From a virus: a stretch of DNA of 29,702 nt. The DNA lies in the IMG/VR virus record IMGVR_UViG_3300011258_000185, positions 1 through 29,702 of that record; one strand, 5' to 3'. Below, one piece after another: positions 4,649 to 16,158 of the stretch. Position 1 is the first letter of the stretch, and every line of letters starts with the position of its first letter. Made by a program: the position numbers and the translations under genes. The notes beneath the pieces are model-generated. The model was not told where the DNA came from. It searched no databases and saw only the letters and a program-made list of their open reading frames with translations.

Positions 4649-5347
4649 ATGAACAAACGTATTCTTGTAATTAGTGATATGCATATCCCTTACCATCACA
4701 AGGATAGTATAAAATTTCTAAAAGAAATAAAAAAAGAATTTAAACCTGACACCATCGTCAATATTGGAGATAGTTTGGACTTTCACGCTATCAGTATGCA
4801 TGACAGTAATCCTGATTTATATTCAGCTGGTTATGAACTAAAAGAAGCTAGAAGATACATAAAAGAGTTAGAAGAAGTCTTTCCTGAAGTTACAGAAGTA
4901 GATAGTAATCATTCTAGTTTAGTTTATCGTAGAGCATTAAAGCATGGAATGAGTAAAGAATTTTTAAGAGATTATGGAGAATTTTTAGGTACTAAAAAAT
5001 GGAAATGGATAGACGATTTAACTTTAACAATGTCAAATGGTCAAAGATGTTTTTTTACGCATGGCCGTAGTGCAGATGTTTTAAAGACAAGTCAAACAAT
5101 GGGTATGAGTTGTGTACAAGGACACTATCATACTAAATTTGTAATAAGCTGGTGGGCTAATCCTGACAATCTATTCTTTGGTATGAATGTTGGTTGTTTA
5201 ATTAATCAAAAATCAATGGCCTTTGCATATGCTAAAAACTTCAAAACAAGATTTATTTTAGGTTGTGGTATAATCTTAAATGGTGTACCTAGATTACTAC
5301 CGATGGTGCTAGATAAAAATGGAAATTGGATAAAACAGATAGTATGA
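4649..5347 (+). CDS. Calcineurin-like metallophosphoesterase
   Basis: 232 residues. Metal-binding motifs are in order: DMH (Asp10, His12), GDSLDFH (Asp41), the usual GNHE motif in the variant form DSNH (Asn87, His88), THG (His138) and GHYH (His159, His161). The fold is therefore a binuclear metallophosphoesterase acting on a phosphodiester or phosphomonoester; the substrate cannot be told from sequence. Phage relatives are often called DNA repair or nucleotide phosphoesterases. Its stop overlaps the next gene (ATGA). It sits among lysis genes, an odd position for nucleic-acid metabolism. Confidence 0.8.
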   Translation: MNKRILVISDMHIPYHHKDSIKFLKEIKKEFKPDTIVNIGDSLDFHAISMHDSNPDLYSAGYELKEARRYIKELEEVFPEVTEVDSNHSSLVYRRALKHGMSKEFLRDYGEFLGTKKWKWIDDLTLTMSNGQRCFFTHGRSADVLKTSQTMGMSCVQGHYHTKFVISWWANPDNLFFGMNVGCLINQKSMAFAYAKNFKTRFILGCGIILNGVPRLLPMVLDKNGNWIKQIV

Positions 5348-12180: not shown

Positions 12181-12561
12181 ATGGCTGAACTTAAAGAAGA
12201 ACACTTTGAAGTTATAGATAGAAATAGAGCGAGGGAATATGAAAAAATGAAAAAACAAGATAAAGAAAGATTTGATAAGTTAAGACAGATCGGCTGTATA
12301 GCTTGTGCGAAAAAAGGATTATATCAAATTCCTGTAATACATCACATAAGAAAAAATACAGGCTTATCAATTAGGCCACCACACACAGACACAATTCCTT
12401 TATGCCCTGAACATCACAATATGGGAAATGAATCTGTGCATTTAAATAAAAAAGTATTCATTGATCTGTTCGGTACAGAACATGAATTGTTAGAAGAAAC
12501 AAACCAAAAAATCAAACAACTAGAAAAGGAAGATATATTTTATGACAAAGGAAACAAATAA
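12181..12561 (+). CDS. Ref-like HNH nuclease (RecA-dependent nuclease family)
   Basis: 126 residues from the first ATG after the upstream stop; the same frame is open back to 12019 and includes coding-looking codons from 12084. Motifs: GCIACAKKG (Cys pair), VIHHIR, HTDTIPLCPEHHNMG and ESVHLNKKVF, then FGTEHELLEE. These match the Ref/DUF968 HNH family, whose P1 member is a RecA-dependent DNA nuclease. Zinc is probably held by the Cys residues and catalysis is at the HH motif. No good Shine-Dalgarno precedes the chosen start, which is uncertain. The 3' end overlaps the replication gene by 20 bases. Confidence 0.75.
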   Translation: MAELKEEHFEVIDRNRAREYEKMKKQDKERFDKLRQIGCIACAKKGLYQIPVIHHIRKNTGLSIRPPHTDTIPLCPEHHNMGNESVHLNKKVFIDLFGTEHELLEETNQKIKQLEKEDIFYDKGNK

Positions 12562-13330
12562 ATTTCATGCATTACAATTATTCACAGATACATTTACTGC
12601 TGAAACAGTACACTTAACAAACGTAGCAGTAGGAATCTATATTAGATTGTTATCGTTTGCTTGGACAAAAAATACTAAACCTTTCACGTCTGAATCAGCT
12701 TATAGAATATGCCAATGCATAGACGATACTTGCAAAAAACAAGTTGATTATATTTTACAAGAATTTTTTAGATGTGAAGAAAATAAAGACGCATGGACAC
12801 ACAAAAGATTAGTTCAAGAACACGCATATCTTATAAATAAATATCAAAGAAGATCAGAAGCTGGTAAAAAAGGTGGTCTAGCAAAGAGAGATAATGCTAC
12901 AAGCAAAAACGTAGCACCTATACCTAGTCCTAGTCCTATACCTACTAATAGTATATATGATCAAGACTTTGAATATCTTTGGAGTTTATTAAATAAAAAA
13001 AAAGGCTCAAAATATAAAGCCTACGGATATTGGTTAAAATTAGATAATTCTATTAATTTATCTATTAAAGATGTTGCTAAAATTTACAATAAGCAAATAC
13101 AAGGAATAGAAGATAATAAATTTATACCTCATTTTGCTACTTGGCTATCTCAAAGAAGATGGGAAATAGAAGATGATAATAATCCAATTCCTGATTTAAT
13201 TGATAGACTTGTTAATCTAGGTTATATTCATAATGGTACAGATGGAAACTTTGAATTATTTGAAAAAGATGGTAAAAAATACAAGATGGATATATTTGAC
13301 GAAAAACATCAAATACAACTTATTCAATGA
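12542..13330 (+). CDS. DUF1376 replication initiation-type protein
   Basis: 262 residues. Residues about 7-60 are a DUF1376 domain (KFHALQLFTDTF, AVGIYIRLLSFAW). A basic/proline linker follows at about 102-137 (EAGKKGGLAKRD, then PIPSPSPIPTNS). The C-terminal part (DFEYLWSLLNKKKGSKYKAY, IPHFATWLSQRRWE) resembles the helicase-loader/replication protein O type C-terminus. It probably binds the origin and recruits the host helicase, since no phage helicase or polymerase is seen. The RBS, GGAAG, is inside the Ref gene. Confidence 0.78.
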   Translation: MTKETNKFHALQLFTDTFTAETVHLTNVAVGIYIRLLSFAWTKNTKPFTSESAYRICQCIDDTCKKQVDYILQEFFRCEENKDAWTHKRLVQEHAYLINKYQRRSEAGKKGGLAKRDNATSKNVAPIPSPSPIPTNSIYDQDFEYLWSLLNKKKGSKYKAYGYWLKLDNSINLSIKDVAKIYNKQIQGIEDNKFIPHFATWLSQRRWEIEDDNNPIPDLIDRLVNLGYIHNGTDGNFELFEKDGKKYKMDIFDEKHQIQLIQ

Positions 13331-13599
13331 AAAAACCAAATAGCATTATAGTTAATAAACAAAAATACTATTTATACAAAATCGAATGGGTCGATATTTT
13401 TGGAGATGCTGGACATAGAAGCTATGATGGATTAGCCAATATGCAACCAGCCTCTAAAACAACATTTGCATTTATCTTCAAAAAGAGTAAAAAGTTTATA
13501 CATACGTTTAGTACATATGATAATAATGAAGAAGAATTTTCAGATTGTAATGTTTTTCCTATCGGTGTAATAGTTTCAATGAATAAAATAGAAATATGA
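13327..13599 (+). CDS. Hypothetical protein
   Basis: 90 residues, beta-rich with YYLYKIEWVDIFGDAGHRSY near the start and an acidic C-terminal region (NNEEEFSDC). ATGA overlap with the replication gene upstream and with the ParB-like gene downstream, so it is translated as part of the same operon. No domain recognised. It may belong to replication or to the DNA-modification cassette that follows. Confidence 0.62.
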   Translation: MKKPNSIIVNKQKYYLYKIEWVDIFGDAGHRSYDGLANMQPASKTTFAFIFKKSKKFIHTFSTYDNNEEEFSDCNVFPIGVIVSMNKIEI

Positions 13600-14225
13600 A
13601 ATTAGAAGAAATAGATATTAATCTAATTGTTCCATATAAAAACAATCCTAGAGAGATACCAATAGAATCTGTAAAAAAAGTAGCAGATTCAATTAGAGAA
13701 TTTGGCAACAATCAACCTATTGTAGTAGATAACGAAAATATTATTGTAGTTGGCCATACTAGGTGGAAAGCCCTTAAACAATTAGGCAGAAAAAAGGCAT
13801 ACATAGTTAAAAAAGATTTTACAGAAAATGAAGCTATGGCCTACCGTATCATGGATAATCGTAGTGGAGAAGAATCTAAATGGGAAAAAGAACTTTTAAA
13901 GAACGAACTTAACATATTAAGAGATAAAGATTTTAACCTTGATCTGACAGGCCTTACTTTTGACGAAATTGAAAAATTCACAGATACACAGCCTGTCTTT
14001 GAGCCAACTAACGACATTATAGCTGATATAAATACAGAACAAATAACTGCACCTATTTCTACAGTTAAAATGGTACAACTATTTTTCAACGATGAAACAG
14101 AAAAAAAATTTAGGGCTATGGTTAAAGAATTAGAATCTGAATACAATAAAGATAATATCACAGATACAGTTTTTGCTATCGTAGAAAGAGAATACAAAAA
14201 TTACAAAGACGAAACAGCTAGATGA
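13596..14225 (+). CDS. ParB/Srx-fold DNA-binding or nuclease-like protein
   Basis: 209 residues. The N-terminal ParB-like domain covers about 5-90: VPYKNNPREIP, SVKKVADSIREFGNNQPIVV, VVGHTRWKALKQLG (GHTRW at 53-57, the nucleotide-binding box region). The C-terminal part (about 150-209) has VQLFFNDETEKKF and a helical end. In phages this domain often comes with DNA methyltransferases or other base-modifying enzymes. Here it is joined by ATGA overlap to a TET/JBP dioxygenase, so a role in target recognition or processing for base modification is proposed. Partition function is unlikely without ParA. Confidence 0.78.
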   Translation: MKLEEIDINLIVPYKNNPREIPIESVKKVADSIREFGNNQPIVVDNENIIVVGHTRWKALKQLGRKKAYIVKKDFTENEAMAYRIMDNRSGEESKWEKELLKNELNILRDKDFNLDLTGLTFDEIEKFTDTQPVFEPTNDIIADINTEQITAPISTVKMVQLFFNDETEKKFRAMVKELESEYNKDNITDTVFAIVEREYKNYKDETAR

Positions 14226-15130
14226 AAACGCTTCACGTGAAACCTAAACTATCTGAAGAAGAAATAAAAAAGTTAGAGGGTACTTTTCTTGATGAATCTT
14301 ATATTGACCATTTAGTTAATGATGACACAATAGTTTATAATGAAAAAAATGAGCCATTAGTAGTTTTCAGAAAAAACTGTATTCCTAGCAATCATATTAA
14401 ACTTGCTTATCCTGTATTAAAAAAAGCAATAGGAAAAACAAGTAATAGAGGCAAAGCTGGTGGAAATTTTAATTTTAAAGTTGGCGACATAGTAGATGGG
14501 TCTGTTGTTGGTAAAGTATTAAGTGGAAATAGATTCATACCATTAAAAAAAGATGGAACTTTGTCTAACTCTCCTAAATCTAAAAACGTAGATTCTAGCA
14601 TTATTGGTTATGCTGATAGATACCCTAGAATACCTTATTGCAGACAGACAGCTTTCACAGAAAAAAATTTTGATATTTATAAAAACGCATTACCTTATAT
14701 ACAAAGTATTTCTAAAGTATTTGAAGAAGCACTACCTGAAAGATTTGCTAATCAAAAAGCATATTGGGATAAAACAAGTAAAGATTTTAGAATACACGAC
14801 ACAGTATTTACAACTATAACTGTAAATAAGAATTTCCGTACTGCTTCTCATTATGACAAAGGCGATCTAAAAGAGGGTTTCGGAAATTTAGCAGTATTAC
14901 AAACAGGAGAATATACAGGAGGATATACAGTTATTCCTAAATATGGCGTAGCAGTAGATGTGAGAACTTGCGATGTCGCTTTGTTTGATGTACACGAATT
15001 ACATGGTAATACTGAAATTAAATCAACAAAACCATACGAAAGAATATCAGTCATTTGTTATTACAGAGAAAAGATGATTGATTGTGGTACAGCAGAGGAA
15101 GAACTAAATAGGATTAAATATGCTCGATAA
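14222..15130 (+). CDS. TET/JBP-family 2-oxoglutarate/Fe(II) dioxygenase
   Basis: 302 residues. The catalytic double-stranded beta helix lies in the C-terminal half: FTTITVNKNFRTASHYDKGD (His210-x-Asp212 metal pair), EGFGNLAVLQTGEYTGGYTV, then DVHELHGN (His258/His261, distal metal ligand) and ERISVICYYREKM (Arg274, 2OG salt bridge). The wording of these motifs is that of the TET/JBP family, which hydroxylates the 5-methyl group of thymine or 5-methylcytosine in DNA. An N-terminal region of about 125 residues precedes it. Overlaps the ParB-like gene (ATGA) and the FkbM gene (11 bases). A predicted phage DNA base oxidase; the substrate base is not determined. Confidence 0.85.
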   Translation: MKTLHVKPKLSEEEIKKLEGTFLDESYIDHLVNDDTIVYNEKNEPLVVFRKNCIPSNHIKLAYPVLKKAIGKTSNRGKAGGNFNFKVGDIVDGSVVGKVLSGNRFIPLKKDGTLSNSPKSKNVDSSIIGYADRYPRIPYCRQTAFTEKNFDIYKNALPYIQSISKVFEEALPERFANQKAYWDKTSKDFRIHDTVFTTITVNKNFRTASHYDKGDLKEGFGNLAVLQTGEYTGGYTVIPKYGVAVDVRTCDVALFDVHELHGNTEIKSTKPYERISVICYYREKMIDCGTAEEELNRIKYAR

Positions 15131-15818
15131 TTTTATATACAGAAAAAACACAACTGACGAGAACGTAATTAAAGAAATAATTACAAAAGAAGCATACAGA
15201 AAAAAAAAATTGAATTTTGGCGTTGAAGCTAATGACGTTTGGTTAGATGGTGGGTCGCATATAGGTGTATTTGGCCTTTATGTAGCTTCTAAAGGTGGTA
15301 AAAAAGTTTATTGTTATGAGCCTGAAACAGAAAACTTTCAAATTTTACAACAAAACGCTACAATGATAAATTCTAAATATCCTACTAATTTAGAATGTTT
15401 CCAATATGCAATTAATCAAAATGGTGGAACAGGACAGTTCACGATAGCACCTAACACTTGGCGACACTCTTTAGTTTCACATTATAAAAAAAAACTACCG
15501 ACAGTAGAAATACAATGTATGAAACTTGACGAAATATTGACAAGACACCCTGATATAAATGCTATAAAATTAGATATAGAGGGATCAGAGTTAGAAATAT
15601 TCGATCACGAACACAATTTTGCCAACATTAATAAACTTGTGTTTGAATATTCTTTTACAAAAGATAGATTAATGGATAACTTCTTTAAAAGAATGGACAG
15701 GCTATCTAAATATTTTTTTGTAGATATACAACCTAGTTACTATAATCAAAAACATCAGGGCAAAGAGGGTTATTGGGGTGGCTTTATAGACACAATCATA
15801 TATTGTGTAAGAAAGTAA
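15120..15818 (+). CDS. FkbM-family SAM-dependent methyltransferase
   Basis: 232 residues. SAM-binding motif I is VWLDGGSHIGVFGLY (DGGSHIG at 43-49), the acidic loop CYEPE follows at 65-69, and the FkbM hallmark IKLDIEGSELEIF at 149-161. FkbM enzymes usually O-methylate hydroxyl groups. The gene starts inside the dioxygenase gene, so the two are co-translated, which suggests it methylates the hydroxymethyl base made by that enzyme. The alternative is methylation of a surface glycan or small molecule. Start at the ATG that overlaps the upstream gene; the longer context gives no better one. Confidence 0.8.
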   Translation: MLDNFIYRKNTTDENVIKEIITKEAYRKKKLNFGVEANDVWLDGGSHIGVFGLYVASKGGKKVYCYEPETENFQILQQNATMINSKYPTNLECFQYAINQNGGTGQFTIAPNTWRHSLVSHYKKKLPTVEIQCMKLDEILTRHPDINAIKLDIEGSELEIFDHEHNFANINKLVFEYSFTKDRLMDNFFKRMDRLSKYFFVDIQPSYYNQKHQGKEGYWGGFIDTIIYCVRK

Positions 15819-15828
15819 AAAGGACATA

Positions 15829-16158
15829 ATGGCAAGACCACTTAAAAAAGTAGATACAGAGGCTATCAAGAAATTAGCCCAATTACATTGTACTTATGAC
15901 GAGATTGCAGAGTTTTCTGGCGTTTCGACAAAGACATTACAGCGTAATTATGTCCACCTTATAAAAAAGGGTCGAGAGATGGGCAAAATAAGTTTAAGAC
16001 GTGCACAATTTGAAAAAGCATTAGGTGGTAATGTTGTTATGCAGATATGGTTAGGAAAACAGCATTTAGACCAACGAGATAAAATAGAACAAACAACGTA
16101 CAACGAGCCATTACCATTAATAATAGAAGCAAAGAATGTCACAGAAAAAAAAGGGTAA
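15829..16158 (+). CDS. terS: Terminase small subunit
   Basis: 109 residues. An N-terminal HTH (residues about 11-46: AIKKLAQLHCTYDEIAEFSG, then VSTKTLQRNYVHLI) and the segment GKISLRRAQFEKALGGNVVM with QIWLGKQHLDQRD are typical of small terminases that recognise the packaging site. AAAGGA before the ATG. The large subunit lies 2 kb downstream, with a run of micro-genes between. Recognises phage DNA and feeds it to the motor subunit. Confidence 0.8.
   Translation: MARPLKKVDTEAIKKLAQLHCTYDEIAEFSGVSTKTLQRNYVHLIKKGREMGKISLRRAQFEKALGGNVVMQIWLGKQHLDQRDKIEQTTYNEPLPLIIEAKNVTEKKG

Follow-up and report, generated by a model that had tools for sequence, protein, structure and literature searches.

Phage TET proteins are said to act as hypermodification enzymes, and the locus studied here raised the question of what such an enzyme does between a ParB-fold protein and an FkbM-family methyltransferase. 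Do the three proteins modify DNA together and, if so, which base is altered and what is placed on it? The DNA that we analyzed, referred to here as the window, was the whole IMG/VR record IMGVR_UViG_3300011258_000185 (29,702 bases), a contig that is not itself complete. Its closest isolate was Pelagibacter phage HTVC112P, in which the trio corresponded to gp17-19 and the TET protein was 94% identical to that of the window. The GenBank label on the HTVC112P TET, "DnaJ chaperone/SNF2 repair protein," was unsupported by the family and fold results.

The cassette and its three proteins

Table 1. Genes of the cassette and its flanks in the window
Feature	Position	Strand	Evidence
DUF1376 / primosomal-type replication protein, upstream flank	12542..13330	+	PF07120 E 8e-11; phrog_9327 E 1.6e-23
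90-aa ORF, ATGA overlap with ParB gene	13327..13599	+	ORF list
ParB_N-domain protein, 209 aa	13596..14225	+	PF02195 E 4e-11
TET/JBP-type Fe(II)/2-oxoglutarate dioxygenase, 302 aa	14222..15130	+	PF12851 E 2.7e-27
FkbM-family SAM methyltransferase, 232 aa	15120..15818	+	PF05050 E 8e-14; TIGR01444 E 2.7e-19
Probable terminase small subunit	15829..16158	+	phrog_309 E 1.5e-7

The sequence-only reading had described three overlapping genes of the ParB, TET/JBP and FkbM families. The coordinates, the strand and the overlaps of 4 and 11 nt were matched exactly in our open reading frame check, and each family assignment scored above its curated cutoff: 43.2 bits versus 26.3 for ParB_N (PF02195), 95.4 bits versus 34.9 for Tet_JBP (PF12851) and 52.6 bits versus 22.7 for FkbM (PF05050). 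The NCBIfam FkbM model, TIGR01444, gave 70 bits versus a cutoff of 37.7. The TET motifs singled out in that reading were located at residues 210 to 212 (HYD), 256 to 263 (DVHELHGN) and 273 to 276 (ERIS), and its FkbM motif DGGSHIG was present and conserved.

The ParB and TET genes shared an ATGA (4 nt, positions 14222 to 14225), and the TET and FkbM genes overlapped at positions 15120 to 15130; this 11-nt overlap was retained in 25 of the 26 distinct relatives that could be scored. When compared with relatives, dN/dS was 0.06 to 0.09 for ParB, 0.07 to 0.11 for TET and 0.04 to 0.09 for FkbM. Values in this range (0.04 to 0.11) indicated strong purifying selection on all three genes, the products of which are thus maintained. 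The terminase flank fixes the position of the cassette ahead of the packaging genes. Immediately 5' of ParB, most FkbM-type loci carried a homologue of the 90-aa ORF, which had no Pfam or PHROG match and which may or may not be a member of the system. The cassette is real, maintained and widespread among marine phages.

The ParB protein contained the motifs NPR, GHxR and DN, with GHxR invariant in 23 relatives. It resembled the N-terminal region of type II methyltransferases (phrog_498, E 1e-35; PADLOC MTase_II, E 2.8e-22), and in PADLOC, phrog_498 and isolates, many of the DNA methyltransferases of phages began with a ParB_N domain. The model of full-length partition ParB (TIGR00180) scored 38.4 bits, under its cutoff of 58.45, and no Pfam domain besides ParB_N was found in the protein. 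We also considered ParB as a kinase, given a weak similarity to SerK (E 7e-5), and set this idea aside: the loci with an amino-acid:DNA transferase (ADDT), described below, already have a P-loop kinase of their own, which leaves no need for ParB to be one there.

In the case of TET, the catalytic set consisted of the HxD at residues 210 to 212, the distal H261 and the 2-oxoglutarate-binding R274, and H210, D212, H261 and R274 were invariant among 46 diverse relatives. A sequence search of solved structures found no TET chain. The top structural match of an AlphaFold2 model (pLDDT 93) was TET2-DNA (Z 20.2, 3.4 A, 255 residues), followed by NgTET1 (Z 18.7), CMD1 (Z 18.2) and CcTet (Z 17.0); the AlkB family came a clear gap below these TET structures (Z 13.4). 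The family score, the full-length double-stranded beta-helix fold and the HxD...H/Arg set placed the protein among the TET/JBP dioxygenases, and we propose that it would hydroxylate a 5-methylpyrimidine in DNA.

The FkbM protein had conserved DGGSHIG (SAM motif I) and IKLDIEGSE (acidic residues) motifs. Its AlphaFold2 model (pLDDT 83) matched the solved FkbM structure 2py6 (Z 13.1, 2.9 A) and the tRNA methyltransferase Trm5a (Z 13.2), a tie that reflects the fold shared by class-I methyltransferases. Sugar or polyketide hydroxyls are the usual targets of known FkbM enzymes.

Exchange of tailoring genes beside TET

More than 200 related loci were compared in total. IMG/VR relatives were gathered with three queries, namely, the window TET, the window FkbM and a TET adjacent to a C5-methyltransferase, and the neighboring genes of TET loci were scored by profile HMMs. 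Among 147 distinct loci, the gene directly upstream of TET was a ParB in 88, a C5-cytosine methyltransferase in 48 and both in none, although the ParB-TET and C5MT-TET sets came from separate searches and the mutual exclusion is thus a contrast between clades. On a TET tree of 70 rows, the upstream partner split the tree with a single change, and the window TET lay outside the clade found beside C5-methyltransferases. The tailoring gene, in contrast, required at least 17 changes inside the ParB clade. Specifically, the third slot of the ParB group held FkbM (22 loci), the TET-associated glycosyltransferase TAGT (20), ADDT plus P-loop kinase (23), kinase (8) or mixtures of these, and the tailoring genes of representatives were confirmed by Pfam (TAGT, PF20691; ADDT, PF18724; and kinase). 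Because FkbM exchanges with TAGT and with ADDT/kinase in one slot, it holds the place of enzymes that act on a TET-made hydroxymethyl group.

The FkbM gene of the window was 93% identical in product to that of locus L014, whose TET was 84% identical, and only 79 to 81% identical to those of L007 and L010, though their TETs were 95% identical. This mismatch indicated that FkbM itself moves between phages. Sister isolates showed that the genomic slot between the replication gene and the terminase gene is variable. In HTVC112P, the slot contained the ParB-TET-FkbM trio; in HTVC111P, which infects the same host, it was taken by a gene that bears the annotation "putative DNA cytosine methyltransferase" and for which we found no Pfam match; and in HTVC026P, it contained small ORFs only.

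Searching with FkbM by tblastn brought up the Prochlorococcus phages MED4-117 and MED4-184/P-HS2, in which the gene order was ParB-FkbM-TET followed by terminase. The ParB of these cyanophages was annotated "DNA methylase." Their TET was divergent: it scored below the cutoff for PF12851 (E 3.5e-6) and matched the window-type TET with an hhalign E of 5.8e-6 and a probability of 85%. The FkbM profiles of the two types matched with an E of 5e-27. The full trio was present in 60 of 80 IMG/VR cyanophage loci, TAGT occupied the FkbM position in five cyanophage-type loci, and the slot held ADDT and kinase in actinophages whose TET belongs to this divergent lineage. Judged by gene content, FkbM is interchangeable with hydroxymethyl-decorating enzymes in both TET lineages, and this interchangeability is the strongest evidence for FkbM acting on the TET product. 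The sequence-only reading had suggested looking for the same trio in marine phages, and it was indeed found in HTVC112P, in pelagiphage relatives and, with the order ParB-FkbM-TET, in these 60 cyanophage loci.

That reading had also joined the three genes into one hypermodification pathway. The operon idea was strengthened by the exchange of FkbM, TAGT and ADDT/kinase in one slot and by the TET2-DNA structural match; the product, the direct action of FkbM and the role of ParB are parts of the pathway that we infer. The trio is almost certainly a DNA-modification operon, and it is reasonably likely that FkbM O-methylates the TET-made hydroxymethyl group directly.

Base, product and competing readings

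The gene content of these phages bore on the choice of base. C5-cytosine methyltransferase (PF00145) was absent from 22 ParB-TET records, including the window and the complete HTVC112P genome, with control genomes positive as expected; among cyanophage-type records, it was absent from 12 of 14. The thymidylate-synthase-type hydroxymethylase (PF00303) was absent from 16 records, again including complete HTVC112P, and hydroxymethyluracil would therefore have to come from TET rather than from a dUMP hydroxymethylase of this type. ADDT belongs to thymidine hypermodification (a related aG/PT-PPlase pathway has been described [PMC9599517]), and it was found with 24 of the 88 ParB-TETs versus none of the 48 C5MT-TETs. 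The lack of C5-methyltransferase and dUMP-hydroxymethylase genes, together with the alternation with ADDT, favored thymine, which is quite probably the TET substrate. The earlier reading had left the pyrimidine open; C5-methyltransferase absence and the ADDT alternation narrow it toward thymine, and the product is what we still infer.

Residue equivalences in the base pocket were taken from motif spacing and published alignments. Base-contact residue D215, common to the ParB-TET and C5MT-TET clades, had its counterparts in NgTet1 (Asp234) and CMD1 (Asp350), and R282 had its own in CMD1 (Arg418) and CcTet (Arg393); all of these enzymes act on 5-methylcytosine (5mC) (PMC7854593, PMC11040006). 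Position 282 was Arg in 88 of 88 ParB-TETs and Asp (44) or Gly (3) in C5MT-TETs. R282 was considered as a thymine-specificity residue and dropped because the CcTet and CMD1 arginines occupy the same position in 5mC-acting enzymes. Since D215 and R282 also occur in such enzymes, the pocket would suit 5mC too, and on these alignments the pocket residues do not discriminate between thymine and 5mC.

The account that we favor has three steps. First, the ParB_N domain would bind phage DNA and bring or position the dioxygenase, replacing a C5-cytosine methyltransferase guide. A guide or clamp for TET is the natural reading of ParB, which stands at the position of the C5-cytosine methyltransferase that would supply sequence specificity in other TET operons. 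Second, TET, which has the fold and catalytic residues of its family, would hydroxylate the 5-methyl group of thymine in polymerized DNA to give 5-hydroxymethyluracil; thymine already bears the methyl group, so a methyltransferase would be unnecessary for this step. Third, FkbM, given its slot equivalence with hydroxymethyl-decorating enzymes, would methylate the new hydroxyl with SAM as the donor, which makes 5-(methoxymethyl)uracil the most likely predicted product. The capped base would protect phage DNA against host nucleases, and restriction protection by the modified base is plausible. On balance, we just lean toward the whole of this predicted sequence of events, with ParB targeting, TET acting on thymine and FkbM capping to 5-(methoxymethyl)uracil.

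The best placed of the alternatives is that the same cassette works on 5mC, which the host or an unrecognized methyltransferase would provide, and that FkbM yields 5-(methoxymethyl)cytosine. Phage TETs adjoining a C5-methyltransferase are common (48 of 147 loci) and reportedly act on 5mC, and the same slot of HTVC111P carries the annotated cytosine methyltransferase. Pocket residues D215, Y280 and R282 match Asp350, Phe416 and Arg418 of the 5mC-acting CMD1 (PMC7854593). However, PF00145 was found in none of the 22 ParB-TET records, the HTVC111P gene had no Pfam match and ADDT tailoring occurred in the ParB-TET clade but not in the C5MT-TET clade; we therefore consider this alternative unlikely.

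FkbM might instead methylate a sugar that an unlinked glycosyltransferase had placed on the base. Sugar O-methylation is known for FkbM enzymes, and both TAGT and FkbM were present in four ParB-TET loci (L027, L074, L079 and L089). The FkbMs that accompany TAGT in L027, L074 and L079, however, formed a separate branch that was 24 to 27% identical to the window FkbM, and the L089 FkbM grouped with them by sequence. These TAGT-partner FkbMs may methylate sugar. The stand-alone FkbMs of pelagiphages and cyanophages had in common a W-R pair close to the conserved residues N112 and S117 (NTWRHS in the window and VWRNS in cyanophages), where TAGT partners had NKGNFS or a similar sequence. In window-type loci, FkbM was alone in the slot, without TAGT, and no TAGT or family 2 glycosyltransferase (GT2) was found in eight FkbM-type records. 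One GT9-like gene, gp49, lies elsewhere in the HTVC112P genome, a point that is weakened by its absence from the records of seven other relatives, most of them incomplete. Methylation of a sugar is thus distinctly unlikely.

Still less probable is further oxidation of thymine by TET to 5-carboxyuracil, with FkbM forming the methyl ester, 5-(methoxycarbonyl)uracil. Stepwise TET oxidation up to the carboxylate has been described (PMC10415333), and the acceptor oxygen of an O-methyltransferase such as FkbM could be that of a carboxylate. But TAGT and kinase/ADDT, which replace FkbM, act on hydroxymethyl groups, and the common intermediate should therefore be a hydroxymethyl base.

FkbM genes are frequent in phages and giant viruses, and FkbM could be an ordinary passenger behind TET, serving, for example, in surface-sugar methylation, with bare 5hmU or 5hmC as the TET product. 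The fixed overlap with TET, the strong purifying selection on FkbM, the independent ParB-FkbM-TET trio in cyanophages and the exchange of FkbM with TAGT in one slot make such a passenger a shade more improbable than the methyl ester. Finally, modification of RNA (e.g., tRNA) by the oxygenase and methyltransferase, as hinted by the name of phrog_6059 ("queuine tRNA-ribosyltransferase") and the Trm5a match, is scarcely credible: by its fold, the oxygenase is a TET rather than a ribosyltransferase; the resemblance to Trm5a is one of shared fold only, tied with 2py6; and DNA is indicated both by the alternation with ADDT and TAGT and by the co-occurrence with C5 DNA methyltransferases.

Relation to known systems

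Operons of the ParB-TET-tailoring kind have already been published, and the FkbM version is apparently new: a search of the open-license full-text literature yielded no paper dealing with the ParB-TET-FkbM trio, HTVC112P or 5-(methoxymethyl) pyrimidines in phage DNA. It also seems that nobody has so far tested a methyltransferase of the FkbM type on DNA. Our tentative proposal, which we rate somewhat below even, is that 5-(methoxymethyl)-2'-deoxyuridine occurs naturally in the DNA of Pelagibacter and Prochlorococcus phages and is made post-replicatively by TET acting on thymine and an FkbM cap, with ParB guiding TET instead of a sequence-specific methyltransferase. If this is true, the glycosyl and amino-acid decorations known from DNA would be joined by a very small, uncharged one, a methyl ether, whose synthesis would take no more than three small proteins in phages that infect two of the ocean's most abundant bacteria. 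A testable rule also follows from the comparison: the base on which a phage TET acts is predicted by the gene before it (a C5-methyltransferase for cytosine and ParB for thymine), and the decoration by the gene after it. An isolate with the cassette (HTVC112P) and sister isolates without it in the slot (HTVC026P and HTVC111P) exist, and thymine-specific TETs would serve as reagents for DNA mapping and labeling.

The closest published layout is that of Gordonia phage CaiB, which has a ParB-TET/JBP-pyrophosphorylase-kinase operon before the terminase gene and for which the authors suggested restriction evasion (PMC9302106). Like CaiB and Mycobacterium phage LilMcDreamy (DR-cluster actinophages), the window has overlapping genes with ParB directly 5' of TET, an adjoining tailoring enzyme and the terminase next. 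Unlike the window, the CaiB type uses ADDT and a P-loop kinase (PF18724 and PF18751) for tailoring, has no FkbM and has a much more divergent TET. The window would share with ViI, M6 and HTVC023P-type pelagiphages a likely hydroxymethyluracil intermediate, post-replicative tailoring and protection from restriction (PMC9599517). In those phages, however, a thymidylate-synthase homologue supplies hydroxymethyl-dUMP ahead of replication, and no such homologue was found in the 16 records searched.

Clusters that pair a C5-methyltransferase with TET, such as that of Methylophilales phage Melnitz, are reportedly devoted to cytosine hypermodification. They have the same TET family as the window and carry TAGT, kinase or other tailoring genes behind it, but the C5-methyltransferase takes the ParB position, the TET belongs to another clade and no ADDT or FkbM was found there. 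Nonlabens phage P12024L has a related TET (39% identical) with an adjoining tailoring enzyme and no C5-methyltransferase annotated in the stretch; it differs from the window in having TAGT instead of FkbM and no ParB beside TET. In kinetoplastids, JBP1 and JBP2 hydroxylate thymine in DNA, and the base J glucosyltransferase then decorates the hydroxyl. The window would share with base J synthesis a TET/JBP hydroxylation followed by a second enzyme acting on the hydroxyl, and it would differ in adding methyl instead of glucose, in its ParB partner and in belonging to a phage.

A marker residue and the start of the operon

Residue 282 in the numbering of the window TET, a predicted base-contact position, was Arg in all 88 of the TETs with a ParB gene directly upstream (ParB-TETs), and was Asp (44) or Gly (3) in the TETs preceded by a C5-cytosine methyltransferase (C5MT-TETs). 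Judged from these sequences, residue 282 is a clean marker separating the two clades. Upstream of the trio, the 90-aa ORF that overlaps the ParB gene was kept in most FkbM-type relatives and had no family match in Pfam or PHROG.

Genes elsewhere in the window and sister phages

The GT9-like gp49 of HTVC112P was missing in seven other FkbM-type records, most of which were incomplete. HTVC111P gp17, which is located in the genomic slot of the trio, had no Pfam match despite its annotation. The metallophosphoesterase of the window had a counterpart in HTVC112P gp55.

Locations of the features discussed (L numbers are collected loci or records)
Feature	Location	Strand	Remarks
90-aa ORF	window 13327-13599	+	ATGA overlap with ParB gene
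Calcineurin-like metallophosphoesterase	window 4649-5347		phrog_221; lysis region
TET dioxygenase, HTVC112P gp18	L001 7599-8507		
GT9-like glycosyltransferase, HTVC112P gp49	L205 2439-3320		behind tail fibre gene
HTVC111P gp17	L287 2354-2971		annotated 'putative DNA cytosine methyltransferase'
TET domain with C-terminal P-loop kinase-like region	L133 7545-10565		single 1006-aa protein; Gammaproteobacteria MAG contig PLET01000113
Cytidylyltransferase genes or HAD/kinase-like plus cytidylyltransferase pairs	L028 1587-2366; L033 10509-11952; L166 8285-9707		adjoining TET-associated glycosyltransferase or TET

Unusual cassettes and database names

The TET/kinase-like fusion is the cassette in a one-gene version; an ORF resembling amino-acid:DNA transferases was also present on that contig. 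The cytidylyltransferase-bearing cassettes give the impression that an activated sugar or polyol donor is produced by the phage itself. In one of them, the cytidylyltransferase was fused to a mannose-6-phosphate-isomerase-type cupin.

In public records, HTVC112P gp18 and the TETs of Caulobacter phage Cr30, Stenotrophomonas phage DLP_6, and Synechococcus phage S-CBWM1 were named 'DnaJ chaperone/putative SNF2 DNA repair protein', and the TET label in RefSeq MED4-117 and PHROG 6059 was 'queuine tRNA-ribosyltransferase'. Both names look wrong for TET dioxygenases.
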